IMG/VR virus record: IMGVR_UViG_3300042988_001172
Span: 1 to 23,454 of that record
DNA from: a virus
Strand: one strand, 5' to 3'
DNA: 23,454 bases
Positions 1-18,155 of this stretch are shown here, piece after piece. A program made the translations under genes and the position numbers. The notes below the pieces were generated by a model. The model was not told the origin of the DNA. It saw nothing but the letters and a program-made list of their open reading frames with translations, and made no database searches. Numbering within the stretch: the first letter of the stretch is position 1; every line of letters begins with the position of its first letter.

Positions 1-211
1 ATTCCACGTAGGTGGCGTAGGACGTGGCGTTCTCGATGCCACCGGATACCTTGTCGCCGGAGACGGAGAGCTGCGTCAGCTTCGTGGAGCGCACCAGTCT
101 TGTCGTATCTTCCGGGGTGCGCGCGTCAGCTTCGGCCTTTAGGACTTGCGACGCCTTCGCCACGGCCGGCCCGAGGGCCTTCAGCAACGATTTGTCGGCG
201 TCTTTCAGCAT
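1..211 (-). CDS. HK97 gp10-like tail-completion/neck protein (partial, 3' end off window)
   Basis: The reading frame starts at ATG (209-211) and runs off the left edge, so about 70 residues are visible. It begins MLKDADKSLLKALGPAVAKA and contains ARTPEDTTRLVRSTK followed by a segment ending NATSYATYVE. The pattern of an N-terminal helix, then 'TP-x-DT-x-L-x-x-S' and 'Y-A-x-Y-V-E', is typical of HK97 gp10-family proteins, which sit at the head-tail interface or complete the tail tube. Position agrees: it is the third small gene after the capsid protein and follows the connector and closure genes, as in HK97-like phages. The leader has no Shine-Dalgarno sequence. The family call rests on motif resemblance and gene order. 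Confidence 0.7.
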   Translation of the reverse strand, partial: MLKDADKSLLKALGPAVAKASQVLKAEADARTPEDTTRLVRSTKLTQLSVSGDKVSGGIENATSYATYVE

Positions 212-215
212 GTGT

Positions 216-536
216 TTAGGTCAGCAGCTTCACCTTGCATTCCAGGTTGTCCACGACGCCCGCCCACTTGTGCGGGACGGCCGACTCGACGAGCCAGTCT
301 TTCCCGCCGTGGCGGACGACGCTTCCGACCTGGACCGAGGACGAGCCGCGGAAGCACGCCGTGGCGGTCGTGACCTCCGTCTCCCTCCCCAGTTGCCCGT
401 CGGCCAGCTTGGCCGAATACGACCACCACGCGCAGGGCTGGTTCGCCGCGACGAGGGACAACGCCACGACCTGTTCCGCCCCGGATTCCGAGACGGTCTG
501 CGCGTACACGTCGGCCAGTTCGTCGAAGAAGACCAT
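216..536 (-). CDS. Putative head closure/stopper protein
   Basis: This 106-residue protein starts MVFFDELADVYAQTVSES. It has a central beta-rich part with WWSYSAKLADGQLGRETEV and GSVVRHGGKDWLVESAVPHK. The small beta-barrel appearance, with a 'V-x-x-GG-K-x-W-x-V' strand pair, and the place between connector and gp10-like genes fit the head closure (stopper) proteins that cap the connector in siphoviruses. The gene ends 4 bp before the start of the next one. No strong sequence signature fixes the family, so the role is inferred mainly from synteny. It could also be another small neck protein. Confidence 0.5.
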   Translation of the reverse strand: MVFFDELADVYAQTVSESGAEQVVALSLVAANQPCAWWSYSAKLADGQLGRETEVTTATACFRGSSSVQVGSVVRHGGKDWLVESAVPHKWAGVVDNLECKVKLLT

Positions 537-537
537 A

Positions 538-1089
538 TTATGCGACGGCGGGTTGGTATTTGCGGACGATGGACTCGGCGGCCATGACGGCCGGATCGGC
601 GTCTTTTCCGTAAGTGACGGAGCGCGGCCCCAGCGTTTGGGAAACCACGTCCCGCCCGGCTTCGCGCGTCAAGGCCTTTGCGGCCAGCTCCACGACGGCG
701 TTCTTGAGGTCGGCCGGACAGGCGGCCCCGCCCGTGAGCGTGACCGTGAAGTACGGCGAGTACGAGAACGTGACGGGCAGGGAAGGCATGGTGACCTCTT
801 CCCCGTCCAGCCAGTAGTCGGTGCCAAGGACGCCCGTATAGGCGGCGCCATCGACTTTCGTTACCGCCGTGGCGAACTTCGTAGGCAGGACGAACTTGTC
901 GCCGAACCGGGAAGCGTGCCGGATCTTGGCGTCGTAGCCCGTCCCGAAGTCAGAAGCCAAGACAGGCCCGACGATCCCCCGCGCCCATGCGGAAACCGCG
1001 TCCAGGGCCGCTTGTACCTGCGCGTCGGAGACGGAGGCCAAGGCGGGCTGGGCGGTGCGGAATTCCGCGAGGGTGGCGAGGGATTGCAT
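538..1089 (-). CDS. Head-tail connector (adaptor) protein
   Basis: This 183-residue protein is largely helical at both ends. The N-terminus (SLATLAEFRTAQPALASVSD, then VQAALDAVSAWARGIVG) is the classic opening of gp6/gp15-type adaptor proteins, in which helices pack against the portal ring. A middle beta region contains YWLDGEEVTMPSLPVTFSYS, and the C-terminus returns to helices (DLKNAVVELAAKALTREAG). Length matches the usual 100-200 residues for adaptors. It lies just after the capsid gene and one small unknown gene, the expected place. The start ATG has no Shine-Dalgarno but follows GACCGACCG. Family assignment is by pattern and order. Confidence 0.6.
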   Translation of the reverse strand: MQSLATLAEFRTAQPALASVSDAQVQAALDAVSAWARGIVGPVLASDFGTGYDAKIRHASRFGDKFVLPTKFATAVTKVDGAAYTGVLGTDYWLDGEEVTMPSLPVTFSYSPYFTVTLTGGAACPADLKNAVVELAAKALTREAGRDVVSQTLGPRSVTYGKDADPAVMAAESIVRKYQPAVA

Positions 1090-1098
1090 CGGTCGGTC

Positions 1099-1338
1099 TT
1101 ACTTTTTCTGACGCTTGGGCTTTTCCGGAGTTGAGACGGTGGCGACGGCTTGCGCCGTTTCTCCCGCCTCGCGGAACCGATTGATGTTCAGATACCGAGC
1201 ATAGCCCGGATGGGCCATGTGCGGCTCGGCGAACTCTACCGTTACCGTTTCCCCTTCGCGCACCTTCGTCTTTTCCGTAGCTCCTGGGAGCATGATGAGG
1301 GTTTCTCCTTTTCCGGCGTATCGGAAGGTGCGCTTCAT
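1099..1338 (-). CDS. Small conserved-position head-region protein, unknown function
   Basis: This 79-residue protein is not recognised. It opens MKRTFRYAGKGETLIMLPG, continues with a predicted beta segment (KVREGETVTVEFAEPHMAHP), and ends in a basic tail PEKPKRQKK. Its place directly after the major capsid gene is where many siphoviruses keep a decoration protein or a small adaptor accessory, but nothing in the sequence proves either. The gene starts 11 bp after the capsid stop with a C-rich leader (TAACCGACTTCCCC before ATG). Confidence 0.6.
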   Translation of the reverse strand: MKRTFRYAGKGETLIMLPGATEKTKVREGETVTVEFAEPHMAHPGYARYLNINRFREAGETAQAVATVSTPEKPKRQKK

Positions 1339-1349
1339 GGGGAAGTCGG

Positions 1350-2525
1350 TTAGACGGTGGCGTTGATCGCGAGGGCGCCCGTGGCGCCTTCACCGACGAG
1401 GGACGTGGCGATGGCCAGGCCCATGTCGTAGGAACCGAGGATCTGCCAGCCCTTGCCCGGGATGCGGTAGACTTCCAGGACGTAATCGGAGCCGAAGCCG
1501 TACTGGACGGCCTTGGAGTTGACGAACATGAATCCGCCCTTCGTGTTGGACGCCGGGGTGGCGGACTGCTTGCCGTCGGCTTCCGTGAGGCCGAACACTT
1601 CGGACGTGTAGACGTTGCAACCGAGGATCTTCGTCAGCGCGCGGACGCCTTCGTTGACCGTGGACATGTTGCCGTTCTTGGCGGCGTCCGCGAAGTCGGC
1701 GATGCCGAGGGACTTGAGGTACGTCTGCGTGTTCATGATCAGCGCAACGTCGGCCGGGTTGGCGGCGTAGGCGCCAAGCTTGCCCATGACCGTGGCGTAG
1801 TCGTCGAACGCCAAGGCGCCCACGTCCGTAGCGGCGGACAGGAACGACTTGCGGAGACCGTCGGCGCCCAGGTAATAGGACGTGTCAGCCGGATCGGCGT
1901 CATCGGAGTTGACGTTGCCGGTAGCGGCGTTCGTCGTGTCGCCGTTGATGATGAGGCCTTCGATGGTGCGGGCGGCGGACTTCGCCAGCTTGGCCTGGAT
2001 GAGCGCCAAGAGGTCGATGACCGAGTAGCGAACGTCCATGTCGGAGACATCGACGGAAGCCTGGTACGTCTTCTGCGTCAGCGTGACGAGGGCCGTCGGG
2101 ACGCGCTTCGTGCCCTGGGCGATGGCGCCGGCGCCGGTCGTCCATTCGGAAGCCAGGTCGTGGAATCCGACCTCACCGACGACGGGGCGCTTTTCGATCT
2201 TCTGCAAACCGCGGCCGTGGAAACCGGCCTGGAAAGCCTGGACGACCGGGGAGTACGTCGGGGCCATGTCCAGGAAGTCGGACATGAGGACGGACGCCGG
2301 GACGAGTTCGGCTCCGTAGCCGGTGTTCGTCGAGTGCATCACTTCGTTGGCGCGGGTCGTGAGCAGGGCCTTGCGTTCCAGGGCCTTGGAAAGGTCGGCG
2401 CGGTGATCGGCGGCGCCTTCGGACTTGTACTGGCCGGCGAGAAGCTCGGCCATGAGGCGGGTCGCGTCGGCGGCGGACCGGATGGTACCGACGTGGACGG
2501 CGCCCGGCTTGAGAGCGGGATTCAT
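1350..2525 (-). CDS. Major capsid protein, HK97 fold
   Basis: This is a 391-residue protein that assembles the icosahedral shell. The order of elements fits HK97-fold capsid proteins: a helical N-terminal arm to about residue 60, the segment TGYGAELVPASVLMSDFLD where the E-loop region starts, GAIAQGTKRVPTALVTLTQK (the 'T-x-K-x-V' strands), a spine helix region (LIQAKLAKSAARTIEGLIIN), then an A-domain with ADVALIMNTQTYLKSLGI. It follows the protease-scaffold gene by 6 bp and precedes the connector genes. The N-terminal arm looks shorter than the 102-residue delta domain of HK97 gp5, consistent with scaffold function being carried by the protease fusion upstream. The leader is CATAAAGAAAC, not C-rich. 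Confidence 0.85.
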   Translation of the reverse strand: MNPALKPGAVHVGTIRSAADATRLMAELLAGQYKSEGAADHRADLSKALERKALLTTRANEVMHSTNTGYGAELVPASVLMSDFLDMAPTYSPVVQAFQAGFHGRGLQKIEKRPVVGEVGFHDLASEWTTGAGAIAQGTKRVPTALVTLTQKTYQASVDVSDMDVRYSVIDLLALIQAKLAKSAARTIEGLIINGDTTNAATGNVNSDDADPADTSYYLGADGLRKSFLSAATDVGALAFDDYATVMGKLGAYAANPADVALIMNTQTYLKSLGIADFADAAKNGNMSTVNEGVRALTKILGCNVYTSEVFGLTEADGKQSATPASNTKGGFMFVNSKAVQYGFGSDYVLEVYRIPGKGWQILGSYDMGLAIATSLVGEGATGALAINATV

Positions 2526-2531
2526 GTTTCT

Positions 2532-3623
2532 TTATGCGTGAACGCTCCGGGCGATTTCGGCCAGCGACGGCATCCTGTAGGAAGCCGACGGGCCATTGTT
2601 GACGGGCGTGCCGGAGCTAAAGCCGCGCGTCAGCATCTTGTTCATCCGTTCCTCGGCCTCGGTCTTGGCGGCGCGGACGCCGTTCAGTTCCGTTTCGAGG
2701 GCGGAAATTTTGGACTGGTGGGCCTTGCTGGCTTCCTGTTCGGAGGCGAGCGCGGCGCGCGCGGCTTCCAACTCTTTGGAGAGCTGGGACGCTTTGGTTT
2801 CGGCCTCGGTCACCTTGGCTTCCGCTTCGGCCTTGGCGGCTTCCGCTGCTTCGATGGCGGGGTCTTTCGCCTCTTCCTGGTGTTCCACAGGTTGGGCGGC
2901 GTCCGGCACAATGGCGGCGGGCGTCTCGTCGGGTTTCACGACTTCCTCCTTGGCCTTTCCGTCCGCGTCCGCTTGCGCGGCCGCCGGGGTTTCACCGGCA
3001 TTTTCAGCGGGCTGGACAGGTTCGGCAACGGGTTTGACCTCCGGGACGACCTCGGCCGCCACGGGGGCGACAGGGGCATCTTGCGTATCTTCGGCGCGGC
3101 AGGCGCGCAGCTCGTCACCGATCTCCTGCATGGAGCGGGCGACGGAAAAGAGGGTGTTTGGGTTGGCGGGGACGGAGACGACGGAGATCTCCTTCATCTC
3201 GATTTTCGTAAGGACCAGCACCTCGCGGTCAGCGACGGCGCGGAACTCCCACGAGACGGGCATGAAGCCGACGGAGAAACCGCGCAGTACGCGGTTCTTG
3301 ACGGCGGAGAACACCCCGTCCACGTCCTCGGTGATTTCGGCGCGTACAAACAGGCCGCCCTGGTCGATGGAGTATTCCACCACCTGGCCGATAGGCTTGT
3401 CGTGCTTGTGTTGGAGCAGCACCACCGGGTTCTTGGCCAGGTAGTCGCGCATCGAATCGGCGTAGGCCGAAGGCTCGATGATGGACTCATAGCTGTCGAT
3501 GTCCGGCGTGGAAGCCAGGCCCTCGACGGTGATCTTTCCTTCCGCCGAACCGTCCACGGCGCGGAAAGCGACCTGGAAGTTGCGGACCTTGGAAAGGGCT
3601 TGTTCGAGCTTCTGCTTGTTCAT
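2532..3623 (-). CDS. HK97-family prohead protease fused to a coiled-coil scaffold
   Basis: The 363-residue protein has two parts. Residues 1 to about 170 are an S78 prohead protease: ITVEGLASTPDIDSYESIIEP, the histidine segment LLQHKHDKPIG (H72 or H74), RGFSVGFMP with the likely nucleophile S117, and KEISVVSVPANP. Residues about 180-245 are a Pro/Ala/Glu-rich linker. Residues about 248-335 form a long Ala/Glu/Lys heptad coiled coil (EAAEAAKAEAEAKVTEAETK and onward), as in delta-domain scaffolds. The last 25 residues are a separate tail. The protease should mature the prohead and degrade the scaffold after assembly, including its own. The gene sits between portal and capsid, as expected. Confidence 0.85.
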   Translation of the reverse strand: MNKQKLEQALSKVRNFQVAFRAVDGSAEGKITVEGLASTPDIDSYESIIEPSAYADSMRDYLAKNPVVLLQHKHDKPIGQVVEYSIDQGGLFVRAEITEDVDGVFSAVKNRVLRGFSVGFMPVSWEFRAVADREVLVLTKIEMKEISVVSVPANPNTLFSVARSMQEIGDELRACRAEDTQDAPVAPVAAEVVPEVKPVAEPVQPAENAGETPAAAQADADGKAKEEVVKPDETPAAIVPDAAQPVEHQEEAKDPAIEAAEAAKAEAEAKVTEAETKASQLSKELEAARAALASEQEASKAHQSKISALETELNGVRAAKTEAEERMNKMLTRGFSSGTPVNNGPSASYRMPSLAEIARSVHA

Positions 3624-3633
3624 GATGGGAAAA

Positions 3634-4779
3634 TTAGGCTTGCGGTTGGGAAGGTTCTGCCGGGTCGTTGAGCGATTCGTCCGGTTCGTGCCCGACGTAA
3701 TCGCGGGCCTCGTTTGTCGTGATGATGCCGCCCGACTTGAGCTTGACGGCGATGTCGGCCCATTGCATTGCCTGGCTGATATGGTCGTCGATGATGTCGG
3801 CGGTGCAACCGTAGGGAGAGAGCAACGTATTTAAAACCTGCTCGAACCGTTCCTCCATCGGGCGGACGGTGTTCTCGATGAAAATTTGGTACTGCTGCGC
3901 CCCGTTGGCGTAGTTGACTCCCTCCGTGTAGTTGAGGATGGACTTCGGGACGCCCATCGCGGCGCACACTTTCTCCGTGGAGAACTGGCGCATCCCCACC
4001 CACTTGCCGTCCTTGTCGGTCGCCGTGAGCGTGATGATCGAGTCGATGGCGTTGGACAGGGTGCCGACCTTGCCCTGGTTCTTGGCGCCTCCGTACTTGG
4101 CTTCCATCTGCTCGCGCAGCTTGTCGGCCTGTTCCTGCGTAGCACCGGCCACCAGCTTGACAAGGTGGGCGGGGACGGCGTTGTTGTCGAAAAAGACGAA
4201 GTTCGCCATTGCCGCGCGGTCGTCCCCGAATGCGTCGTACACCACGCGGGCGACCGGGGAAATGCCCCAGGCTGGGTTTTTCCTGTCCTTGGCGGGCTTG
4301 ACGTGGATAACGTCCTCGGCGGGGTAGGTGAACTGCCGCCCCTGGCGCATCTGATCGGCGTACACGTAGCGCGTCGGCAGGGACGTGGCGCTGTCGGTGT
4401 AGATCGTGACGTGGCACGGGTCCAGCAACTCCACTCCCACCGGGTTGCCCTCGGCGTTGCGGAGGATGGCCCAGAAGACGTTGCCGCCCACCTTCACGTC
4501 CACCACGGCGTCGCCCTTCACGGACAGGAACGACTTGACCAGCGCGTCCGTCTCGGGGGATTTGAATTCCCGCTCGCCCTTCATCACCAGAACGCCGGAC
4601 TTCGCCACGGTGTCGCCCAGTACCTCGGTCGCGCGGGAAACGTCGCCGTTTCGCTCCCAAACGTCAAACCAGGTGCGCATCGAGCGGACGGCCAAAGGTT
4701 GGTCGCCCGCTTGGGAGTTCTGCCGGAGTATCGGCGTGGCCGTCGCCGCACGGAACGCGGCCTTGCGAGGTTTTGGCAT
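3634..4779 (-). CDS. Portal protein, HK97 type
   Basis: This 381-residue protein forms the dodecameric portal ring through which DNA is packaged. The recognisable track of HK97-type portals is present: a stem opening with RATEVLGDTVAKSGVLV, GGNVFWAILRNAEGNPVGVE, TYPAEDVIHVKPAKD, GISPVARVVYDAFG, the helical FSTEKVCAAMGVPKSILNY, NGAQQYQIFIENTVRPMEE, and the C-terminal GGIITTNEARDYVGHEP. Length is near the usual 380-450. It is one of very few genes here with a Shine-Dalgarno-like sequence (AAAGGA, 4784-4790), and a candidate promoter lies just upstream, so head genes may be expressed more strongly from this point. Confidence 0.9.
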   Translation of the reverse strand: MPKPRKAAFRAATATPILRQNSQAGDQPLAVRSMRTWFDVWERNGDVSRATEVLGDTVAKSGVLVMKGEREFKSPETDALVKSFLSVKGDAVVDVKVGGNVFWAILRNAEGNPVGVELLDPCHVTIYTDSATSLPTRYVYADQMRQGRQFTYPAEDVIHVKPAKDRKNPAWGISPVARVVYDAFGDDRAAMANFVFFDNNAVPAHLVKLVAGATQEQADKLREQMEAKYGGAKNQGKVGTLSNAIDSIITLTATDKDGKWVGMRQFSTEKVCAAMGVPKSILNYTEGVNYANGAQQYQIFIENTVRPMEERFEQVLNTLLSPYGCTADIIDDHISQAMQWADIAVKLKSGGIITTNEARDYVGHEPDESLNDPAEPSQPQA

Positions 4780-4783
4780 CGAG

Positions 4784-4790
4784 TTCCTTT
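4784..4790 (-). promoter_or_regulatory. Shine-Dalgarno-like site of the portal gene
   Basis: On the minus strand AAAGGAA lies 4 bases before the portal ATG, giving AAGGA at normal spacing. It is unusual in this window, where almost all other starts lack any purine-rich site. Confidence 0.55.
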
Positions 4791-4796
4791 GAGGTC

Positions 4797-4824
4797 ACAT
4801 TATCCCGCGAGTCGCGCAAGTCAA
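4797..4824 (-). promoter_or_regulatory. Candidate promoter for the head genes
   Basis: The 48-bp gap between terminase and portal contains, on the minus strand, TTGACT (4824-4819) and GATAATGT (4804-4797). Spacing is 14 bp to GATAAT or 16 bp to TAATGT, so neither choice is ideal. The -35-like box starts 3 bp after the terminase stop codon. Confidence 0.35.
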
Positions 4825-4827
4825 GCG

Positions 4828-6288
4828 TTAAGCGAAAACCGGGACGAAAGCCGGGCGGGCCACGGCGTCGAAGACGGTATCGGCCAGGTCGTCGTGCGTC
4901 ACGTTCGGGAACGCCAGTAGTTGCTCGACCGTCGCATGGGAGGCCGGGCAGTCGGGGCTGAAGTACACGTTGCCGTTTTGGAATTCCGCTTGCACCTCCT
5001 TGGCGCGGGTCACCTTGTCCTTGTGGCGCTTAACCTCCGTCACGGCGATGCCACGTTCGCGCAAGAGTCGGGCCAGCGTCGCCATATAGCCCACGGATTC
5101 GATCTTGACCACGTTGGCGCGGTAGCGGCGGTACAGCCCTTCGATGACGGCAAGCGCGTTGTTGTCGTCCTTGGCGGGGCCCTTGAGTTCCTCGCCCCAG
5201 AGCATGACCCTTTGGACGCCGCGATGGCCCCAGCACGTGATGGCGAAGGCGTCGGAGAGTGTCTTGGTGCTGTTGGCCGGGTCACAGATGATCTCTACGC
5301 GGTCCCAGGATGACGCACCAGCGACGCATTCGCTGCCGATGGCCCAATGCATCCACTCGCGCCGGAAGATCGCTTCCCCGCCCTCGTAGGGCACCAGCTC
5401 GTAGTTTTGAGCGTAGGCCGTCGGCCCCTGCTGTTCGAGCTTCTTTTGCAAGCTGATGGGGGACTTGTGCCCCTTGGCCTTTGCTTCGTCCGCTTCCGCG
5501 TCGGTGGCGAAGATGCGGGCGGGCCAAGCGATGACGCCTTTCTCGACGGCGGGTTGCCAAAAGCACGCCCAATCATTCCGGCGGCCCATTTCGCGGTAGA
5601 TGCGTTGCGATACCCCGTCGCCCTTGATGACGTTCCCGAGTACCACATAACGCGCGGACGCCCCTTCCGCGCCCATGATTTCCCCCTTGACCCGGTTATA
5701 CCCGGCGTCGATGAGTTCCACGGTGTTGACGGAGCTGATCGTGTCGATGTCGTCCAGGACGATGAGATCCGGGCGGCGGGAGATACCTTCCTTGTCAATG
5801 TAGTTGACGCCGCGCACGCCCGTGCCTAGCCCCAATGCGCGCACCTTCACGCCGTTGGTGGTGATGAACTCGGCCATGGTCTTGCGCTCCTTGATGTCCA
5901 AGGCGGCCTCCTGCTTCCCGTTGTAGAGTTCCCCGAAGTCGCCCTTAAGGTTCTGGTTGGCTTGTAGTTGTACGGTGATGTCATACAGGCGTTCCTGCGC
6001 CTTGGCCTGGTCTTGGCATACCCACAGTATGTACCCAACTTCCTTGAAGGCGATGGCACGTATCACGTCGGCCACGGCCCACACGGTCTTGCCCAGGTCG
6101 CGGGCGCCGATGACGCACACTGACTTGCGGGCGTTGAACGCCTTGGCCCACTCCCAATGAAACGGGGCGGGCGGCACGCAAAAAACCCCAGGGAGGTAGT
6201 TGACCCCGAAGGCGTAGAGGGAACGCTTGACCAGCTCCGGCCGGACGGCGGGATCTTCGAGCGCGGCTTGGATGGTCCGAAGGTCCAT
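4828..6288 (-). CDS. Terminase large subunit (packaging ATPase/nuclease)
   Basis: This 486-residue packaging motor couples ATP hydrolysis to DNA translocation and cuts the concatemer. The ATPase domain has a Walker A at residues 61-68 (GARDLGKT) and a Walker B at 175-180 (LIVLDD), followed by DTISSV. The RNase H-like nuclease domain shows EIICDPAN (D336), LSDAFAIT (D346), VVKIESVGY (E397) and the terminal acidic pair THDDLADT (D466/D467). Length is normal for the family. The start ATG overlaps the stop of the preceding 51-residue gene as TAATG, implying translational coupling. Confidence 0.9.
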   Translation of the reverse strand: MDLRTIQAALEDPAVRPELVKRSLYAFGVNYLPGVFCVPPAPFHWEWAKAFNARKSVCVIGARDLGKTVWAVADVIRAIAFKEVGYILWVCQDQAKAQERLYDITVQLQANQNLKGDFGELYNGKQEAALDIKERKTMAEFITTNGVKVRALGLGTGVRGVNYIDKEGISRRPDLIVLDDIDTISSVNTVELIDAGYNRVKGEIMGAEGASARYVVLGNVIKGDGVSQRIYREMGRRNDWACFWQPAVEKGVIAWPARIFATDAEADEAKAKGHKSPISLQKKLEQQGPTAYAQNYELVPYEGGEAIFRREWMHWAIGSECVAGASSWDRVEIICDPANSTKTLSDAFAITCWGHRGVQRVMLWGEELKGPAKDDNNALAVIEGLYRRYRANVVKIESVGYMATLARLLRERGIAVTEVKRHKDKVTRAKEVQAEFQNGNVYFSPDCPASHATVEQLLAFPNVTHDDLADTVFDAVARPAFVPVFA

Positions 6289-6443
6289 TAGTCGGGGTCT
6301 AACATATCCGCAATTTCTTCTCCGATGCTTTCAAAGTTTGAAGCCACGCTGTCCGGCTCTTTGCCCTGGACGGCGCTTGATAGGTCGGAGATGGCGGAAA
6401 ACGGAAGTTTCGCGGCTTGTCCGATGAATCCGAAGATTGACAT
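6288..6443 (-). CDS. 51-residue protein coupled between the terminase subunits
   Basis: This small protein reads MSIFGFIGQAAKLPFSAISD, then a polar acidic C-terminal half rich in Ser and Glu ending ADMLDPD. It is not recognised. Both its start and its stop overlap neighbours through TAATG: its ATG overlaps the stop of the small terminase, and its TAA overlaps the start of the large terminase. This double coupling suggests the three are translated in series and argues strongly that the gene is real. The hydrophobic, Gly/Phe-containing N-terminus could form a short amphipathic helix. A packaging accessory role is possible by position only. Confidence 0.65.
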   Translation of the reverse strand: MSIFGFIGQAAKLPFSAISDLSSAVQGKEPDSVASNFESIGEEIADMLDPD

Positions 6444-6877
6444 TATCCGGGAAGGTTAGCGATGGCCCCTTGGAGCAGGGCGATTTGGTCGGGCGTCAGC
6501 GCCTTGGCCGCGCCGTGTTCGTCGGTGGCCTCGCCTCGGAGCAGCATGTACCGGGCGGCGGACTCCTTGGCGATGCTGGACAGGTCGCGGGCCTCCACCA
6601 TGGCGACGGGGCGTTTCAGTTCGCGGAGGATGTGGCCCTGGGCGAGCTGCACGATCTCCACGTCGGCGTCGGTGATCGCCAAGATTCGTTCGTCCTTAGC
6701 TCCCGATTGTCTCACTTCCTCCTTTACCCGATTGACGGACGAGGGGGAAACCCCTGCCGCCTTCGCCAGTTCCCTTTCCGTAGCTCTAGGCTTGGCGAGC
6801 ATGGCCTTGGCGACCTTCTCGATGGTCTTGCGGCGGTCGGAACGCTGGCGCTTGGGCTTGATGGGTTCGGATGGCAT
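6443..6877 (-). CDS. Terminase small subunit (probable)
   Basis: The 144-residue protein has a basic N-terminus (PKRQRSDRRKTIEKVAKAML) followed by a helix-turn-helix at about residues 33-54 (TERELAKAAGVSPSSVNRVK). Then come a helical middle (DVEIVQLAQGHILRELK) and a C-terminus with KALTPDQIALLQGAIANLPG. DNA-binding N-terminus, oligomerisation middle and position directly before the large terminase are the hallmarks of small terminases, which recognise the packaging site. A terminal segment of this type could contact the large subunit. The leader (AAGCCAGCACC before ATG) has no Shine-Dalgarno. Confidence 0.75.
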   Translation of the reverse strand: MPSEPIKPKRQRSDRRKTIEKVAKAMLAKPRATERELAKAAGVSPSSVNRVKEEVRQSGAKDERILAITDADVEIVQLAQGHILRELKRPVAMVEARDLSSIAKESAARYMLLRGEATDEHGAAKALTPDQIALLQGAIANLPG

Positions 6878-6897
6878 GGTGCTGGCTTACTGGCTGA

Positions 6898-7095
6898 TTA
6901 TACTCCGACCTCGACCGAAACGCCACCCCGCTTGACGGTCACGGTGACGGACTTGATGGAATCCTCGGCTCCCTTTTTCTTGGCGTCGGCGAGCAACTGG
7001 GCGACGCAATCCCCCGCGACGGCGGAGTGTCTGGCGAATTCCTCCAGGCTGGCGGCGTCCGGGCAAAGGACGTGGACGTTATCGGGGGTGAGCAT
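6898..7095 (-). CDS. Small unknown protein (65 aa)
   Basis: The protein begins MLTPDNVHVLCPDAASLEEF, has a helical middle (RHSAVAGDCVAQLLADAKKK), and ends in an alternating beta pattern, SIKSVTVTVKRGGVSVEVGV. It is not recognised. It starts 9 bp after the stop of the gene before it. The sequence at its own stop codon reads GTATAATC on the minus strand, so the TAA lies inside a perfect TATAAT hexamer. Confidence 0.55.
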   Translation of the reverse strand: MLTPDNVHVLCPDAASLEEFARHSAVAGDCVAQLLADAKKKGAEDSIKSVTVTVKRGGVSVEVGV

Positions 7096-7104
7096 ACGTC
7101 GGGA

Positions 7105-7359
7105 TTATACTTGCGCCTCGAAGGAACGGAAATACGCCTTGGCGAGCCTAACGCCCCTGGCTGTGAGGTAGAACGCGGTCTTGCCGTTCTCGTTGATACG
7201 GCCGCAAAGCCCGGCGCGTGCCATTTCACGGAGACGGACGGGCATGGTGGTCTGTCCCATGTTCTTGAGCGGTGACGAAAGGTACCAGGGGAAAGCGGGG
7301 TTGCACTTGGTGGCCTTCCGGCGAAGCAGCAGCGCGGCGATCTTGGCGTACTGGTTCAT
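7105..7359 (-). CDS. Small winged-helix-like protein (84 aa), unknown
   Basis: I take the ATG at 7357-7359, preceded by TAACCGCCCCACCC, rather than a longer upstream frame, because this leader matches those of neighbouring genes. The protein starts MNQYAKIAALLLRRKATKCN, then MPVRLREMARAGLCGRINENG and FYLTARGVRLAKAYFRS. The order helix, 'RLREMARAGLCGRI', then 'G-K-T-A-F-Y-L-T-A-R-G' resembles winged-helix folds, where the wing hairpin often carries 'Y-x-L-T-x-x-G'. A DNA-binding role is therefore plausible, but no family is identified. Confidence 0.6.
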   Translation of the reverse strand: MNQYAKIAALLLRRKATKCNPAFPWYLSSPLKNMGQTTMPVRLREMARAGLCGRINENGKTAFYLTARGVRLAKAYFRSFEAQV

Positions 7360-7370
7360 GGGTGGGGCGG

Positions 7371-7646
7371 TTAGATTTTGACGCGCCAGGCGTTCGCCAC
7401 GTCGATGACGGCCAAGGTTCCGAAAATGGCGGCGGCCGAGGCGGCTGCCCATCCCTCGAATCCCTGCGGGACGTACCCGGCGGAGAGCGTCACGGCGACG
7501 GAAGCGGAAAACGCGCAGGCGGCTCCTTTGAAAACGGCGTGCTGTTCGCGCAAGCCCTTCAAGGCGATGCGGGCACCGAGGCGGGCGATGTTGGCCGAAT
7601 CGACGGAAGCCTGGGCGGCAACGTCCATTTTCTCGCGGTTGTTCAT
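7371..7646 (-). CDS. Small membrane protein (91 aa)
   Basis: The start is the ATG at 7644-7646. The N-terminal 35 residues are polar and helical (SVDSANIARLGARIALKG), followed by two hydrophobic segments at about 40-57 (GAACAFSASVAVTLSAG) and 64-84 (WAAASAAAIFGTLAVIDVA), so two membrane helices are likely. Function is unknown. Small two-helix proteins of this kind can be holins or superinfection-exclusion proteins, but there is no evidence here. The C-rich leader (AGCCCTTACCCA, then CCAGCCC before ATG) is complementary over 12 nt to the predicted 5' part of a candidate small RNA at 18070-18149. Confidence 0.6.
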   Translation of the reverse strand: MNNREKMDVAAQASVDSANIARLGARIALKGLREQHAVFKGAACAFSASVAVTLSAGYVPQGFEGWAAASAAAIFGTLAVIDVANAWRVKI

Positions 7647-7662
7647 GGGCTGGTGGGTAAGG

Positions 7663-7789
7663 GCTGGGTAATTTCCCAGCGTGGGCAATCGATCCGGCAA
7701 GACGGAGGTGGCCCTCCAGTTCTCGCCCAGGTATCTAACCCGCTGGCGAGAATCGATTGCCCGCGCCGGGAGGCGTCCCGAGAGACGCC
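7663..7789 (-). ncRNA. Highly structured 150-bp spacer (three-way junction plus hairpins)
   Basis: The gap 7647-7796 has no gene but is dense in inverted repeats. An 11-bp closing stem pairs 7683-7693 with 7752-7762 (GGGCAATCGAT/ATCGATTGCCC). Inside it are a 5-bp stem with a 4-nt loop (GGAGG 7704-7708, CCTCC 7713-7717) and an 8-bp stem (TTCTCGCC 7720-7727, GGCGAGAA 7745-7752). This makes a three-way junction of about 80 nt. It is flanked by GGCGTC/GACGCC (7772-7777/7784-7789) and GCTGGG/CCCAGC (7663-7668/7675-7680). A tRNA was considered but there is no T-loop or anticodon arm. It could be a structured leader, a stable RNA, or a DNA site for packaging or replication. Strand is assumed from neighbours. 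Confidence 0.4.
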
Positions 7790-7796
7790 AGGCGGG

Positions 7797-7961
7797 CTAC
7801 TTCTCGACCTTCTCAATGGCGAAGCCTTCCGCGATGCGGACGATGGAGCGCCACACAAGGACAGGGGCGAACAATCCGAACGTCACGGCGGTCAGCGCGC
7901 CCCACAAAAGGAACTCCAGCGCGAAGGCGATGCCGCCGGTCTTCATCTTGAACTGGTACAT
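7797..7961 (-). CDS. Small membrane protein (54 aa)
   Basis: This short gene starts at the ATG at 7959-7961. The protein reads MYQFKMKTGGIAFALEFLLW, then a continuous hydrophobic run (GALTAVTFGLFAPVLVW) and a polar tail beginning RSIVRIAEGF. One long or two short membrane helices are expected. The 'T-x-G-L-F-A-P' turn is seen in several small phage and bacterial membrane proteins. Function unknown. The structured spacer at 7663-7789 follows it directly. Confidence 0.6.
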   Translation of the reverse strand: MYQFKMKTGGIAFALEFLLWGALTAVTFGLFAPVLVWRSIVRIAEGFAIEKVEK

Positions 7962-7991
7962 GGGAAGAAAGATAATGGTTTGAAACTTTAT

Positions 7992-8207
7992 TTAGGCCTT
8001 GCGGTACAGGGTGACAAGCTCGGAACCTACGTGGACGAACCGCCAATCCAGCCACGACAGGACGCGCTTGGACGGGCCGGACGGGAAATCCTTTGCCTTG
8101 CCATTCTTCAACGCCTTGCAGGCTTTGCGGAACAGGCTTTTTCCATGCTGGACGCTGGCGCAACGTTCCTCGGCGCGTTCCTGGGCGTGTTTCGTGAAGG
8201 TGATCAT
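7992..8207 (-). CDS. Small basic protein with DUF4258-like opening
   Basis: The start is taken at ATG 8205-8207, which overlaps the stop of the preceding gene as ATGA. The 71-residue product begins MITFTKHAQERAEERCASVQ, continues with FRKACKALKNGKAKDFPSG, and ends with WRFVHVGSELVTLYRKA. The opening 'F-x-K-H-A-x-E-R-x-E-E-R' followed by a basic middle and a terminal 'L-V-T-L-Y-R' strand resembles DUF4258/RelE-like small proteins, some of which are toxins or nucleases. The resemblance is partial. A longer upstream frame exists but would overlap the preceding gene heavily and is rejected. Confidence 0.55.
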   Translation of the reverse strand: MITFTKHAQERAEERCASVQHGKSLFRKACKALKNGKAKDFPSGPSKRVLSWLDWRFVHVGSELVTLYRKA

Positions 8208-8392
8208 TCGCGGGTTTGGTAGGGTTGGGCTACGACGGTCTGCGAAGCGCGGCACGAATAACACACGTCTCCTGGCCCAATCACGTAGGCGTGCTTCCTC
8301 TCGAAGCAGCGCGTACAAGTGATGAGGTGCGGCCCTTTACGGACTACCCGCCGCAGATAGGGCAAGGCGGTATTTTCGACGGACGTATTCAT
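8204..8392 (-). CDS. Small zinc-ribbon protein (62 aa)
   Basis: The protein holds two CxxC knuckles: LITCTRCFERKHAYV and GDVCYSCRASQTV, about 15 residues apart, which should bind one zinc ion. The rest is short and polar. The family is not recognised. Such mini zinc ribbons are common in phage early regions and often bind DNA, RNA or host polymerase, which is only a general expectation. The start ATG (8390-8392) lies 56 bp inside the end of the preceding gene, with a leader ending CTCACCC. The stop overlaps the next start as ATGA. Confidence 0.6.
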   Translation of the reverse strand: MNTSVENTALPYLRRVVRKGPHLITCTRCFERKHAYVIGPGDVCYSCRASQTVVAQPYQTRE

Positions 8393-8690
8393 GGGTGAGC
8401 TTTTGGGAACCTGTTGCTTTGGTGCCGACCGCGTAGATCGCGGCGGCCTCGGGGGAACCTTTCTTGACGGTCAAACGGACGGTCACCTGGTCTTTGGACG
8501 GGTCGGCATGGTCGAAAATAACGTAGGCCAACTTGACGAACCTTCCGGCCATGAGCGCCTCGGTTGCGCGGCCCAGCTTCCATTTCGGAAGCGTACCCCA
8601 CAGGTGCTTTGCGGCGTCGGACGGCTTCTTGAAGAAGCGGTGCCCCTTGCTGGCGTGCGGGTACTTGCGGGTGATGGCGCGGCGCTTCAT
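8337..8690 (-). CDS. Unknown basic protein (117 aa), first gene after promoter element A
   Basis: The ATG at 8688-8690, preceded by AACCCACACCC, is preferred to an upstream in-frame start, because the upstream stretch would include the promoter element at 8716-8747. The product is basic: MKRRAITRKYPHASKGHRFF, FKKPSDAAKHLWGTLPKWK, a beta-rich middle (FVKLAYVIFDHADPSKDQVT, VRLTVKKGSPEAAAIYAVG), and a C-terminus with THEYVRRKYRLALSAAGSP. No family is recognised. Its 3' end overlaps the zinc-ribbon gene by 56 bp. Confidence 0.6.
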   Translation of the reverse strand: MKRRAITRKYPHASKGHRFFKKPSDAAKHLWGTLPKWKLGRATEALMAGRFVKLAYVIFDHADPSKDQVTVRLTVKKGSPEAAAIYAVGTKATGSQKLTHEYVRRKYRLALSAAGSP

Positions 8691-8715
8691 GGGTGTGGGT
8701 TGCGTGAATGATACC

Positions 8716-8747
8716 GTGATACTGCTTTTTTGCAAATCGGAATACTA
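8716..8747 (-). promoter_or_regulatory. Repeated promoter/operator element, copy A
   Basis: On the minus strand, TATTCC (8744-8739) and TATCAC (8721-8716) are separated by 17 bp containing TTTGCAAAAAA. A second hexamer, TATCAT, lies at 8713-8708. The element starts within the TAG stop of the gene at 8745-8963. It is the most divergent of five copies. Confidence 0.6.
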
Positions 8748-8963
8748 CAATCCTGCGAATGCGGCGGGGAAGGTGCGGCGTGCCCAGGTCTTGGCGCGTT
8801 GGCGGACGCAGGACTGCGCCAAGCGTTCCACGTCGCCCTGTTCCCCGTCAGCGACGGGAAGGTGCATCGTCTCGCCCGTGGGGAACGGAAAGGAAAAGTG
8901 GGCGGCGCCGTTCTGGACGACGCGGCGCATGGGCCAGATCGGGACGACCTTTTTGCGTTGCAT
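8745..8963 (-). CDS. Small unknown basic protein (72 aa)
   Basis: The start is ATG 8961-8963 with a leader ending GAATAACC. The product begins MQRKKVVPIWPMRRVVQNGA, then FSFPFPTGETMHLPVADGEQ, and ends with a basic helix (CVRQRAKTWARRTFPAAFAG). It is not recognised. The stop codon TAG is part of the repeated promoter element that follows, the same arrangement seen at the other copies. Confidence 0.5.
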   Translation of the reverse strand: MQRKKVVPIWPMRRVVQNGAAHFSFPFPTGETMHLPVADGEQGDVERLAQSCVRQRAKTWARRTFPAAFAGL

Positions 8964-8965
8964 GG

Positions 8966-9178
8966 TTATTCGGAAAAGGTTTGGAAAGCCACGACGAGGC
9001 CGACGATGATGAGCCAAGAGCAAAACCAGGCTACGGCGGCGGATACGATGAGCGCTCCGGCGGTCAGCCCTACAATCCACGTCACGAACAATACTGGTAC
9101 GGCGACGCCGGAAATCCATGCCAACAGTCGGAACGCGACGAGCAGGACGGCGGCGACGGAAAAAAAGATTGCTTTCAT
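8966..9178 (-). CDS. Small hydrophobic membrane protein (70 aa)
   Basis: Nearly the whole protein is hydrophobic. Segments at about residues 3-20 (AIFFSVAAVLLVAFRLLAW), 23-43 (GVAVPVLFVTWIVGLTAGAL) and 45-66 (SAAVAWFCSWLIIVGLVVAF) give two to three membrane helices with very short connections. Only the two ends are polar (MK and QTFSE). Size and topology would suit a holin or a small inner-membrane protein, but it lies far from the presumed lysis genes, so no role is assigned. Confidence 0.6.
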   Translation of the reverse strand: MKAIFFSVAAVLLVAFRLLAWISGVAVPVLFVTWIVGLTAGALIVSAAVAWFCSWLIIVGLVVAFQTFSE

Positions 9179-9188
9179 GGCGCGGCGC

Positions 9189-9500
9189 TTAGCGTTCGTT
9201 CCCGGTAATAACCGTGAGGTTGTCAGTTCGGAGGCAGCGGCCCGCCTTGTATTCTATGGACACTCCCGGCGGCAACATGCGGTGCGACGGGTCGGAGTCG
9301 GCGGCGACGCCGTAGTATTCCGCGATTTCGTTGCAGGCGATTTGCGCCTGGCGCTGCGAGTAGCCCTGGGCGGCGCTGATGGTGAGGAAGATTGCGGCCA
9401 CGAAAACGATGAGCGGGGCGAACACTTCCGCGACGGACTGGCCGATGCCGGGCGCCGGGTATTCCATGCGGTCGAGCATCAAGCGTTGATTCGGGGTCAT
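9189..9500 (-). CDS. Single-pass membrane protein (103 aa)
   Basis: From ATG 9498-9500 the product reads MTPNQRLMLDRMEYPAPGIG, then a hydrophobic stretch at about residues 26-44 (VFAPLIVFVAAIFLTISAA). A polar region follows with QAQIACNEIAEYYGV and MLPPGVSIEYKAGRCL. One membrane helix with a roughly 60-residue soluble domain carrying two cysteines is expected. If the N-terminus is cytoplasmic, the cysteines could form a periplasmic disulfide. No family is recognised. The leader is C-rich (TAGCCACCCCACCC before ATG). Confidence 0.55.
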   Translation of the reverse strand: MTPNQRLMLDRMEYPAPGIGQSVAEVFAPLIVFVAAIFLTISAAQGYSQRQAQIACNEIAEYYGVAADSDPSHRMLPPGVSIEYKAGRCLRTDNLTVITGNER

Positions 9501-9511
9501 GGGTGGGGTGG

Positions 9512-9763
9512 CTAAAAGGTGGGGTTGACGATTTCGGAGACGGTCTCGGCGACGATCCGGCGGGCGTGACTGATCGCTCCGTCCAGGTCTCCGGCCCTTT
9601 CCGCCGCGCGTTGTGCGGGCGACGACGGGAAGCGGTGGCCGGAGAGCGAGACGTAGGAATATGACTTGACGGCGGCTTTGACCTCGCCGGGGGTCGGCTC
9701 CCGGTAGGTGCCGTCCGGGCATTTCACCCGGAAGCAGTTGACGGCGGCGGCGTAGCTAGTCAT
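9512..9763 (-). CDS. Small unknown protein (83 aa)
   Basis: The start is ATG 9761-9763. The product begins MTSYAAAVNCFRVKCPDGTY, then REPTPGEVKAAVKSYSYVSL, and ends with a helix containing LDGAISHARRIVAETVSEIV. It is not recognised. The first 8 bp overlap the end of the preceding gene, so the two are probably translationally coupled. Confidence 0.5.
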   Translation of the reverse strand: MTSYAAAVNCFRVKCPDGTYREPTPGEVKAAVKSYSYVSLSGHRFPSSPAQRAAERAGDLDGAISHARRIVAETVSEIVNPTF

Positions 9764-10097
9764 GTGCGGGCTGGTTACGTTCGGATTTCTCTTGGGCGGC
9801 GTCCACCTCGGCGTCGTGCCTCGCGGCTTCCGAGCGGTCGGCGTCCTTCTCGGCGTCGGCAACGTTGGCGGCGGCGTCGAATTCCAATGCCATGCGCAAG
9901 AGATTCTTGGCAATCGGGCCGGAATCTGTGCGGCTGATAACCGGGTACATTTCCGAAACGGTACGCAGGATTTCCGCGACGTGGCGAAGATCGGAAGCGT
10001 TCAACGCAAGCGTGAACTCTGCGGGATAGCGGATGACGGTACAAGTGGAAACTTTGCTTCCCAAATCGGTGACGACGGGCTGGATGGTGGGGTTCAT
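9756..10097 (-). CDS. Unknown helical acidic protein (113 aa), first gene after promoter element B
   Basis: The ATG at 10095-10097 is chosen because the longer upstream frame would run through the promoter element at 10138-10170. The product begins MNPTIQPVVTDLGSKVSTCT, then VIRYPAEFTLALNASDLRHV and AEILRTVSEMYPVISRTDSG. It ends in a strongly charged helix or coiled coil rich in Ala, Asp and Glu (AADVADAEKD-like; AARHDAEVDAAQEKS). The function is unknown. Its stop lies inside the start of the next gene. Confidence 0.55.
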   Translation of the reverse strand: MNPTIQPVVTDLGSKVSTCTVIRYPAEFTLALNASDLRHVAEILRTVSEMYPVISRTDSGPIAKNLLRMALEFDAAANVADAEKDADRSEAARHDAEVDAAQEKSERNQPAHD

Positions 10098-10137
10098 GGT
10101 CTTGCTGGTTTGTCCGGGATGCCCCGGCTGCAAAATC

Positions 10138-10170
10138 ATTGTATTCCTTTTTTGCAAAAAGCAATACTAT
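10138..10170 (-). promoter_or_regulatory. Repeated promoter/operator element, copy B
   Basis: On the minus strand, TATTGC (10166-10161) is followed after 17 bp by TACAAT (10143-10138). The interval between forms a nearly symmetric 25-bp palindrome centred on TTTTTGCAAAAA. The element begins 4 bp after the TAA stop of the gene at 10171-10569. Confidence 0.7.
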
Positions 10171-10569
10171 TTAGTTACGGAAGTTCGCTTCTATTTCTTC
10201 CGGCGTGGCGGCGCGAATCTCGTCGCTGTAAATCCATTCCCCGGCGACGCGGTACTTGATCGTCCTAAGCTTTCCTTCCTTGACCAGCCGGATTGCGTCA
10301 ATCGTCCCGAACGTCTTGGTGTTTTGCTGGGCAAATTCCATCACGTGAACTCGGTCTCCGACGCGCAGGTTAACCTTTTGGTTAGGGACGGGTTCGCAAT
10401 CCTTGATGTTCCAGCTGACGACTTCCGCTCCGGGATAGTCGATTTCGTGGACATGTACCCATTCCGGGTGCATCACGTCGTGGCGTATCACTTCCGCGAC
10501 GACTTCCGGGCGGTTAATTTTGCGGATCTTCTGCCTCGTCAAGGCCGGGATAAATTCTTTCGGTTGCAT
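10171..10569 (-). CDS. Unknown protein (132 aa) with a small beta-barrel-like middle
   Basis: The product begins MQPKEFIPALTRQKIRKINR and contains WVHVHEIDYPGAEVVSWNIK, a segment NQKVNLRVGDRVHVMEFAQQ, and GTIDAIRLVKEGKLRTIKYR with a terminal helical part ATPEEIEANFRN. The succession 'V-G-D-x-V-H-V', a glycine turn and 'G-x-I-x-x-I' resembles SH3/KOW-like barrels that read charged polymers, but the match is too loose for a family name. It starts 10 bp after the coiled-coil gene, with a leader ending GAAAAACC. Confidence 0.55.
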   Translation of the reverse strand: MQPKEFIPALTRQKIRKINRPEVVAEVIRHDVMHPEWVHVHEIDYPGAEVVSWNIKDCEPVPNQKVNLRVGDRVHVMEFAQQNTKTFGTIDAIRLVKEGKLRTIKYRVAGEWIYSDEIRAATPEEIEANFRN

Positions 10570-10579
10570 GGTTTTTCGG

Positions 10580-11446
10580 TTAGCGCACGTCCATATCTTC
10601 CCAAATCCGCACCCCGGAGATCTCGCGCGCGCCGGCGTTCACGGCGGCCCGGATGGCCTTCTCGTCGGCGCACAGGTATTCGCGGGGAAGCTTGGCGGCG
10701 TCGGTCACCTCGAACTTGGCGACCTTCCGCACGCCCTTGGGGGCCTGGACCTTGGCGCGGGCGGCGGCTTCGCTGGCGGCGCGTTCGGCTTCCTTGGCCA
10801 ATTGCTCCTGCTGGGCCTTCCGGGCGGCGTCCTGCTTGTCTTGCTCCAACTTGCGGGCTTCCGCCTCTTGGCGGGCCTTTTCCTGGGCGATGGCGGCGGC
10901 TTCCTCGCCCTGCTTCTTGGCGATTTTGGCAAGCTCCTTGCGTTCGGCGTCCAGGCGCTTGGCCTCGGCGGCCTGTTCGCGGGCCTGGGCGATGGCGGTT
11001 TTGCGGGCTTCGGCGGCGGCCAGCACTCCCAGGTCGTCGAAGTCCAGGCCGGCCACCACGGCGTCCACGGCGGCCTCGTCCTGCGCGGCGCTGATGGCGC
11101 GCTGGGCGTTCGCCACGGCCAGCTCGCGGGCCTTGCGCTTGCGTTCCAGTTCCGCGTTGTAGTCCATGATCTTGCCCTTGACCTTCTCCTTGGCGGTCTC
11201 GACCGGGGCGACCAGCTGCTTGGCCAGCTCGTCGATCTCGCGGCCCTTTTCCAGGTAGGGTGCTTTGGCGGCCGCCCGCTGCTGCTCGATGTAGGAAGCG
11301 AGCATCTGCGCGTTCTTCAAAAGCTCTTGGGCCTCCGGCAGCGTCGGGGCGGTGACGGCCAGGGCGTCAACCTTGGCGAGTAGGGTATCCGCCTTGGCGC
11401 GGATGGCTTGCAGGGACTCGGCGGCGAAAATTTGGAGGTCGGCCAT
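10580..11446 (-). CDS. Coiled-coil protein of the early region (288 aa)
   Basis: An N-terminal helical part (LLAKVDALAVTAPTLPEAQE, then YIEQQRAAAKAPYLEKGREI) leads into a very long Ala/Lys/Glu coiled coil from about residue 90 to 225 (KAREL through EAERAASEAAARAK). The C-terminal domain of about 60 residues ends ISGVRIWEDMDVR. The same architecture, with 'K-A-P-Y-L-x-K' and a closing 'G-V-R-I/F-x-E' motif, is common in phage early operons near RecT or ERF recombinases and is usually annotated as hypothetical. RecT is about 4 kb upstream here, so a role in recombination or replication is an inference. It is the first gene after promoter element C. Confidence 0.65.
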   Translation of the reverse strand: MADLQIFAAESLQAIRAKADTLLAKVDALAVTAPTLPEAQELLKNAQMLASYIEQQRAAAKAPYLEKGREIDELAKQLVAPVETAKEKVKGKIMDYNAELERKRKARELAVANAQRAISAAQDEAAVDAVVAGLDFDDLGVLAAAEARKTAIAQAREQAAEAKRLDAERKELAKIAKKQGEEAAAIAQEKARQEAEARKLEQDKQDAARKAQQEQLAKEAERAASEAAARAKVQAPKGVRKVAKFEVTDAAKLPREYLCADEKAIRAAVNAGAREISGVRIWEDMDVR

Positions 11447-11475
11447 AGGGTAAGGGTTAGGGCTACGGCGTGCCT

Positions 11476-11507
11476 ATCATATTCCTTTTTACGGAAAAGC
11501 AATACTA
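11476..11507 (-). promoter_or_regulatory. Repeated promoter/operator element, copy C
   Basis: On the minus strand the TAG stop of the HNH-like gene runs directly into TATTGC (11504-11499), then 17 bp containing TTTTCC and AAAAAGGAA, then TATGAT (11481-11476). The predicted start site is about 25 bp before the ATG of the coiled-coil gene. Confidence 0.7.
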
Positions 11508-15225: not shown

Positions 15226-15246
15226 GTTTCTTGTTATGGCAGGGCT

Positions 15247-15280
15247 ATTGTACGCCTTTTCCGCGAAAAGCAATACTTTA
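15247..15280 (-). promoter_or_regulatory. Repeated promoter/operator element, copy D
   Basis: On the minus strand the TAA stop of the RecT gene (15280-15278) runs into AGTATTGC (TATTGC 15275-15270), then 17 bp with TTTTCGCGGAAAAGG, then TACAAT (15252-15247). The start of the methyltransferase gene is about 22 bp further on. The right half of the palindrome is weaker than in copies B and C. Confidence 0.65.
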
Positions 15281-16636: not shown

Positions 16637-16669
16637 AGCGGGGAGGTGGTAAGGGTAAATGGCTTGACT

Positions 16670-16701
16670 ATGATATTCCTTTTTTGCGAATTGCAATACT
16701 A
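16670..16701 (-). promoter_or_regulatory. Repeated promoter/operator element, copy E
   Basis: On the minus strand the TAG stop of the gene at 16699-17049 runs directly into TATTGC (16698-16693), then 17 bp with TTCGCAAAAAAGGAA, then TATCAT (16675-16670). The RecT start is about 33 bp further on, after a C-rich leader. Confidence 0.7.
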
Positions 16702-17846: not shown

Positions 17847-17918
17847 TCCCGAGAGATTTAATATATTTCAAATCCTCTTCAGATAGCGCAAACCATTCTC
17901 CGTTTCTTTATTTTCCAT
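17839..17918 (-). pseudogene. Possible frameshifted mini-ORF before the replication gene
   Basis: In one frame (17907-17839) the minus strand encodes RNGEWFALSEEDLKYIKSLG followed by NA and a stop that overlaps the next start by 8 bp, a typical gene end. That frame has no start codon and a TAA just upstream. An ATG at 17918-17916 in the adjacent frame gives MENKETENG and then diverges. A one-base change near AAATAAAG would join them into a 26-residue peptide. This may be a decayed gene, a sequencing indel or a frameshift product. Confidence 0.25.
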
Positions 17919-17934
17919 GTGCGAAAATTCACGA

Positions 17935-17969
17935 AATAAATCCCCCACGCTCTTCACTTCGTGGGGGAT
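17935..17969 (-). terminator. 9-bp hairpin with 12-nt loop (terminator or leader structure)
   Basis: The minus strand pairs ATCCCCCAC (17969-17961) with GTGGGGGAT (17948-17940) around the loop GAAGTGAAGAGC, then continues TTATTT. The T-run is short, so termination may be weak. The loop holds GTGAAGAG, complementary to CTCTTCAC transcribed from 18013-18006, which could make a pseudoknot. A small ACCC-GAAA-GGGT hairpin lies between (17985-17974). Confidence 0.45.
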
Positions 17970-18069
17970 CCATACCCTTTCGGGTCGGTCGTGCGCCTTT
18001 GCCTGGTGAAGAGTGCAAGCAGGGGCGCACGAAACCGCCGCCATCCTACGCCTCCCGTTTTCAAAGTCA

Positions 18070-18093
18070 AGAAAACCCCGGATTTCTCCGGGG
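18070..18093 (-). terminator. Intrinsic terminator with GAAA tetraloop
   Basis: On the minus strand CCCCGGA-GAAA-TCCGGGG (18093-18076) is a 7-bp GC-rich stem closed by a GAAA tetraloop and followed at once by TTTTCTT. This is a good rho-independent terminator. It lies only about 55-75 nt after the predicted start from the promoter at 18156-18183, so it would end a short RNA or act as an attenuator of the replication gene. A competing GGGC/GCCC pairing just upstream could act as antiterminator. Confidence 0.6.
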
Positions 18094-18149
18094 CCTTCCG
18101 CCCTTTGGTTCCCCCGTGCTTGCGCGAGCGGGAGCCCTTACCCATAGGC
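18070..18149 (-). ncRNA. Candidate ~80-nt small RNA or attenuated leader
   Basis: The promoter at 18156-18183 predicts a start near 18149, and the terminator at 18076-18093 predicts an end near 18070. The 5' part contains TGGGTAAGGGCT (18144-18133). This is complementary over 12 nt to the leader of the membrane-protein gene starting at 7646, and over 8-9 nt (CCCTTACC or CCCTTACCC) to the leaders of genes starting at 11446, 16636 and 19760. A 67-codon frame covers the same bases but spans the terminator and looks non-coding. The RNA is inferred only from these signals. Confidence 0.3.
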
Positions 18150-18155
18150 AAGGCC

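Follow-up and report, generated by a model that had tools for sequence, protein, structure and literature searches.

A strongly folded candidate RNA element in an intercistronic spacer upstream of the terminase genes of an uncultivated tailed phage

Phages T7 and lambda provide examples of intercistronic RNase III processing sites. The smallest target that RNase III is stated to need is a stretch of double-stranded RNA (dsRNA) of about 22 nt, and within operons its cleavage can stabilize or destabilize parts of the transcript (PMC5371410). Two further phage RNAs are described that act by other means. HK022 put, a two-stem RNA (PMC9378689) found in early transcripts, binds the β′ zinc-binding domain of RNA polymerase and suppresses downstream terminators. 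The phi29 pRNA has interlocking loops, i.e., complementary loops on two arms for intersubunit pairing (PMC5340915). Here, we compare with these systems a 150-nt spacer in a stretch of 23,454 nt of DNA, which we call the window and which comes from an uncultivated tailed phage.

Every recognized gene around the spacer is on the minus strand, which is therefore the transcript strand for the spacer given the orientation of its neighbors. The spacer lies within one co-directional operon, in which a block of small early-side genes comes before it and the packaging/head genes come after it, the small terminase gene being ~0.8 kb downstream. The main features are as follows:

4828–6288, minus strand: large terminase gene, terL (phrog_38, E 3.5e-56; Terminase_6C)
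6443–6877, minus strand: gene for a putative small terminase/HTH DNA-binding protein, directly before terL (weak PHROG terminase-small-subunit and HTH matches)
7371–7646, minus strand: downstream gene, an ORF for a 91-aa putative two-TM membrane protein (codon score 0.39)
7647–7796, minus strand: 150-nt intercistronic spacer with the structured RNA (gene map, codon scores, fold z −5.5)
7797–7961, minus strand: upstream gene, an ORF for a 54-aa hydrophobic protein (codon score 0.49)

Small genes also lie between the putative small terminase and the 91-aa gene, whose product has no match in PHROG or Pfam. Upstream of the 54-aa gene there are more small genes, followed by recombination/replication-type genes (RecT-like, exonuclease, and methyltransferase). 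Farther upstream in the window, an 894-aa ORF (20408–23092, minus strand) with no PHROG match adjoins a putative Rz-like spanin. At 150 nt the spacer is long by comparison with the other gaps of the operon, which are mostly 0 to 35 bp. It looks noncoding since its codon-usage score is below zero in whichever of the six frames it is read (−0.18 to −0.58), while both flanking genes score as coding. Because the gaps elsewhere are so short, translational coupling across the operon is likely, judging by the gene map, and a long structured gap would be expected to break it.

In the predicted minimum free energy (MFE) fold of the minus-strand RNA, a 5′ hairpin precedes a basal helix, which leads into a three-way junction bearing a side hairpin and an end arm. 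Its parts, and two helices that compete with them, are the following:

7772–7789, minus strand: 5′ hairpin, 7 bp with a 4-nt loop (pair probabilities 0.84 to 0.99)
7752–7771, minus strand: 5′ arm of the basal helix (inverted-repeat pairing, MFE fold)
7674–7693, minus strand: 3′ arm of the basal helix (pair probabilities 0.85 to 1.0 save at the mismatch)
7728–7742, minus strand: side hairpin CGGGU-UAGAU-ACCUG, at the junction (pair probabilities 0.96 to 0.99)
7696–7727, minus strand: end arm of fold S1, the MFE, made of a GGCGAGA/UCUUGCC helix (7727–7721/7702–7696) and a UGGAGG-GCCA-CCUCCG cap hairpin
7720–7752, minus strand: alternative arm of fold S2, UUCUCGCC/GGCGAGAA, 8 bp, which excludes the S1 end arm
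7663–7680, minus strand: alternative 3′ hairpin GCUGGG-AAAUUA-CCCAGC (P ~0.06), with neither a U-tract nor a terminator call

An earlier note on this DNA had named several helices, and all of them are present in the sequence: GGGCAATCGAT (7683–7693) pairs perfectly with 7752–7762, TTCTCGCC (7720–7727) and GGCGAGAA (7745–7752) are complementary over 8 bp, and there are a 4-nt loop closed by a 5-bp stem (7704–7717) and flanking hairpins at 7663–7680 and 7772–7789. The arrangement that we predict for the RNA is different in three respects. First, the outer stem, given as 11 bp, exists but is longer. The arms of the basal helix (7674–7693/7752–7771) are Watson-Crick at 18 of 20 positions, and in the minus-strand MFE the helix has 8 bp, a C•A mismatch (7763/7682), and 13 bp, making 21 bp in all (7771–7750/7674–7695). 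Second, the 8-bp stem that had been proposed as a junction arm is outside the RNA MFE, with P ~0.03; GGCGAGA pairs instead with UCUUGCC (7702–7696, P ~0.97). Third, the 7663–7680 hairpin does not stand alongside the outer stem: it shares bases with the lowest part of the basal helix, and the two are mutually exclusive. In fold S2, the 8-bp stem stacks on the side hairpin through a 2-nt bulge and uses the same GGCGAGA strand as S1. S2 is ~3.6 kcal/mol above S1 as RNA and is the MFE under DNA parameters. The order of the two folds stays tentative since program predictions of three-way-junction energies err by several kcal/mol (PMC5340915).

We assessed the significance of the fold with 1000 dinucleotide-preserving shuffles per strand. 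The full 150 nt of the minus strand folds at −77.5 kcal/mol (z −5.5), a value that none of the 1000 shuffles reaches, as against z −2.6 for the plus strand (11/1000 shuffles). For the 98-nt core (7771–7674), z is −8.0 on the minus and −5.7 on the plus strand, with 0/1000 shuffles on each. When both strands of the window were scanned in 130-nt segments (roughly 930 of them), the top outlier was the segment from 7651 on the minus strand, with z −8.5, the runner-up being at z −5.9. G-U pairs make up 6 of the 46 pairs in the minus-strand fold and 2 of the 45 in the plus-strand fold, an excess that would follow from maintenance of an RNA fold. This asymmetry between the strands, including the G-U share, argues for a gene-sense RNA over a DNA site. 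The structure is thus real, beyond chance, and strand-biased. The gap is indeed long, apparently noncoding, and significantly structured, as the earlier note held, but the structure had been described on the plus strand, whereas the neighboring genes are on the minus strand and the fold is far more unusual there.

We searched for relatives using terL, the protease, the 91-aa protein, the 117-aa protein, the small terminase, and MCP as protein queries. A 22.4-kb contig (IMGVR_UViG_3300047552_001395) belongs to the same phage and matches window 1–10,998 at 99.99% identity. Among the viral contigs searched, it is the sole other one with the spacer, of which it carries an identical copy. The nearest relative, L003 (95% by terL and ~92% over the terL-to-head part), stops at window 7314, ~330 bp short of the spacer. 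Apart from these two, the protein searches returned just distant relatives, with an MCP identity of 30 to 41%, a genome-collection scan gave one distant match, and the more distant relatives had no recognizable spacer homologue. When we ran blastn against 50,697 phage genomes, an 801-nt region comprising the spacer and its flanks was unmatched, and the spacer itself gave just 19-nt chance matches (E ~5). Exact-pattern scans of the viral contigs returned 17 matches in the collection for GGGCAATCGATTCTC, which looks like chance, while those for GGTTAGATACC..GGCGAG were in sequences with unrelated folds.

The distant relatives include AT-rich phages whose genes can be read through with code 25. 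In several of these, a well-folded gene-sense element is found after a small membrane-protein gene, mostly ~1.2 to 1.4 kb upstream of terL:

L047, 351–450: code-25 element
L049, 1415–1516: code-25 element
L050, 1348–1449: code-25 element
L056, 1412–1516: code-25 element
L073, 1553–1658: code-25 element
L090, 1384–1489: code-25 element
L094, 1428–1529: code-25 element
L095, 370–474: code-25 element

This element combines a conserved ATAAG..TGCATAAGTAATTA hairpin and a terminator-like hairpin (ACCTTTGA..TCAAAGGT-GTTTTC), with compensatory changes, and runs up to the start codon of a gene that looks NinG-like by eye. We rejected it as a homologue of the spacer: it is AT-rich, terminator-like, and placed before a different gene; the two have no sequence match; and their covariance models do not cross-match. 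Other windows of the code-25 phages fold equally strongly. The likeness is one of location rather than of common descent. In another distant relative (L044, 1711–1830), a long hairpin GCGTTGAGA..TCTCAACGC with z −5.4 is ~0.1 kb upstream of the portal gene.

The spacer lies below a series of promoter-like repeats. A 34-nt repeat, TAGTATTGCTTTTTGCAAAAAAGGAATACAAT..., occurs in five copies between 8714 and 16701, all on the minus strand and all upstream of the spacer (8.7–16.7 kb):

8714–8747, minus strand: promoter-like repeat, the closest copy, ~1 kb from the spacer
10136–10169, minus strand: promoter-like repeat
11474–11507, minus strand: promoter-like repeat
15245–15278, minus strand: promoter-like repeat
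16668–16701, minus strand: promoter-like repeat

The repeat has sigma-70-like hexamers (TTGCTT - 17 nt - TAYNAT), the spacer between which is a palindrome of the TTTTGCAAAA type, and each copy is possibly a promoter plus operator. Over the 16 kb of packaging and structural genes read downstream, including 7.5 kb past the window in L004, the repeat is absent.

The explanation that we place first, and hold tentatively, is that the spacer is an intercistronic mRNA processing/stability element, probably an RNase III-type dsRNA target. It would encode a cis-acting RNA within one long minus-strand phage transcript, transcription from the repeat at 8714–8747, or from the four farther upstream, presumably passing through it. 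The nascent RNA would form an extended helical rod, from the 5′ hairpin through the ~21-bp basal helix and the three-way junction to the side hairpin and end arm, and this rod may be a double-strand-specific processing/stability boundary cut by a host nuclease. Cleavage or blockage at the rod would part the upstream mRNA from the packaging/head mRNA, and the structured ends left there would slow exonucleases. The 91-aa gene and its followers would then be uncoupled in translation from the upstream gene, with a likely effect on their expression. A cis-acting transcript RNA is favored because of the strand bias, the G-U pairs, and the operon position; a nuclease boundary is suggested because the dominant feature is a ~21-bp helix extended by a further arm. 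Consistent with this, the strongest, gene-sense fold outlier of the window has no U-tract, whereas T-tract hairpins exist on the same strand at ~17.95 and 18.09 kb; the promoter-like repeats are all upstream; the other gaps are mostly short; and the 91-aa start is accessible. On the other hand, the basal helix is mismatched, and a simple hairpin would suffice without a three-way junction or competing folds. The match to RNase III is also unspecific since this enzyme needs little beyond dsRNA.

Alternatively, the rod might work in trans as a stable small RNA of the phage, for instance by binding a host or phage protein, after being excised from the operon transcript or made beside it. This we regard as possible but unlikely. 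The predicted RNA is compact, very stable, and ~120 nt long, with defined hairpins at both ends, and its three-way junction is more elaborate than a processing hairpin requires. However, the closest phage-type promoter repeat is at 8714, no minus-strand terminator follows the fold in 7300–9000, and there is no second locus in the sequence searched. No family in Rfam 15 matched at the gathering threshold, and up to E = 10 there was just lncRNA/frameshift-element noise. ARAGORN found no tRNA or tmRNA in the spacer, in keeping with the earlier note. Two short resemblances were also discarded: that of GUUAGAUACC to the loop of 16S rRNA helix 24, since chance alone would give a 9-nt match in a 1.5-kb molecule, and an integron attC-like GTTAGAT, which is without a partner box.

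It is improbable, in our estimation, that the spacer RNA acts while nascent in antitermination or attenuation of the packaging/head operon, whether like HK022 put or as a leader attenuator, through a switch between S1 and S2 or through the 3′ hairpin. Its location, with the promoter-proximal small genes on one side and the long packaging/head operon on the other, would fit such a role, as would its two pairs of mutually exclusive helices, but there is no recognizable terminator to control. No intrinsic terminator (a GC-rich hairpin followed by a U-tract) was called on the minus strand in 7300–9000, and no U-tract follows the spacer hairpins, including the one at 7663–7680, so the view that the spacer is not a terminator stands. 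Moreover, the spacer is ~1 kb inside the operon rather than beside a promoter, and put is built of two stems (PMC9378689) rather than around a three-way junction. Terminator-like hairpins can be seen by eye in a 337-nt gap of the window (17847–18183, minus strand), which has two of them with T-rich tracts (~17.95 and ~18.09 kb) and a fold z of −5.9.

We give equally little credence to a translational switch or riboswitch for the 91-aa membrane protein. The spacer is immediately upstream of the 91-aa start, and the 7663–7680 hairpin ends 16 nt before the ATG, but this start is open in the predicted ensemble: its accessibility of 0.75 is the highest among the 11 starts tested, and the final 27 nt ahead of it are unpaired. 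The switch hairpin reaches ~6% occupancy, and there is no Rfam riboswitch match. A leader for the 91-aa gene, as suggested earlier, is thus not favored in the sense of one that sequesters its start. Among the minus-strand genes of the window, the starts have no Shine-Dalgarno motif; their ATGs are often preceded by a stop codon and a C-rich stretch, e.g., CCACCC.

A DNA-level site, i.e., a cos/pac packaging site or a replication origin near the terminase genes, seems to us quite improbable. The 20-nt inverted repeat is ~0.8 kb from the small terminase gene, and the single-stranded DNA fold of the spacer is significant on both strands, but the gene-sense RNA folds markedly more strongly than the other strand, a difference not required of a site in duplex DNA. 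In addition, neither of the two spacer-bearing contigs ends inside the spacer, and there is no GC-skew switch there. Finally, an accidental structure is highly improbable: although the GC content of the gap is 67% and only an identical copy was found for comparison, the fold is matched by 0/1000 shuffles and is the best of the ~930 scanned segments, and the near-perfect 20-nt inverted repeat is in a noncoding gap of a compact genome.

Taken together, these findings describe an orphan structured intercistronic phage RNA that is real and well defined, in one phage, with no homologue found in the collections searched. Beyond the model phages, little cataloguing has been done of structured RNAs in noncoding operon gaps. 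Since this one is a clear thermodynamic outlier, strongest in the gene sense and placed at a packaging-gene boundary, a few homologous sequences would suffice to define an RNA family, and homologues would also let one test how such phages separate or time the expression of gene blocks. It is rather doubtful that the RNA represents a new class of phage RNA, in which a three-way junction with two folds of near-equal energy would switch the transcript over from expressing small genes to expressing packaging/head genes, or would act in trans, in an uncultivated lineage distantly related to the code-25 phages.

How does the spacer RNA compare with the described systems? Like phi29 pRNA, it is a phage RNA that measures ~120 nt, has a basal helix leading to a three-way junction with two hairpin arms, and is encoded close to packaging genes. 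We rejected an assignment to pRNA since the UAGAU and GCCA loops of the MFE fold are not complementary, there is no Rfam match up to E = 10, and the phi29-type packaging ATPase works without a conventional small/large terminase pair, whereas the phage here has one (the small subunit being putative). With HK022 put it shares being a structured nascent phage RNA within an operon. It differs in architecture, as a three-way junction ~1 kb from the closest promoter-like repeat, with no downstream terminator seen in 7300–9000 (minus strand), and on these grounds it does not match a put-type antiterminator. From the intercistronic RNase III sites of the E. coli set (PMC5371410) the predicted spacer RNA differs in having a three-way junction and competing inner folds. 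As in those sites, a long imperfect dsRNA helix is predicted in a noncoding gap of a polycistronic transcript; where the minimum target is ~22 nt, the helix has 21 bp and a single mismatch, and beyond the junction a 7-bp arm carries it on.
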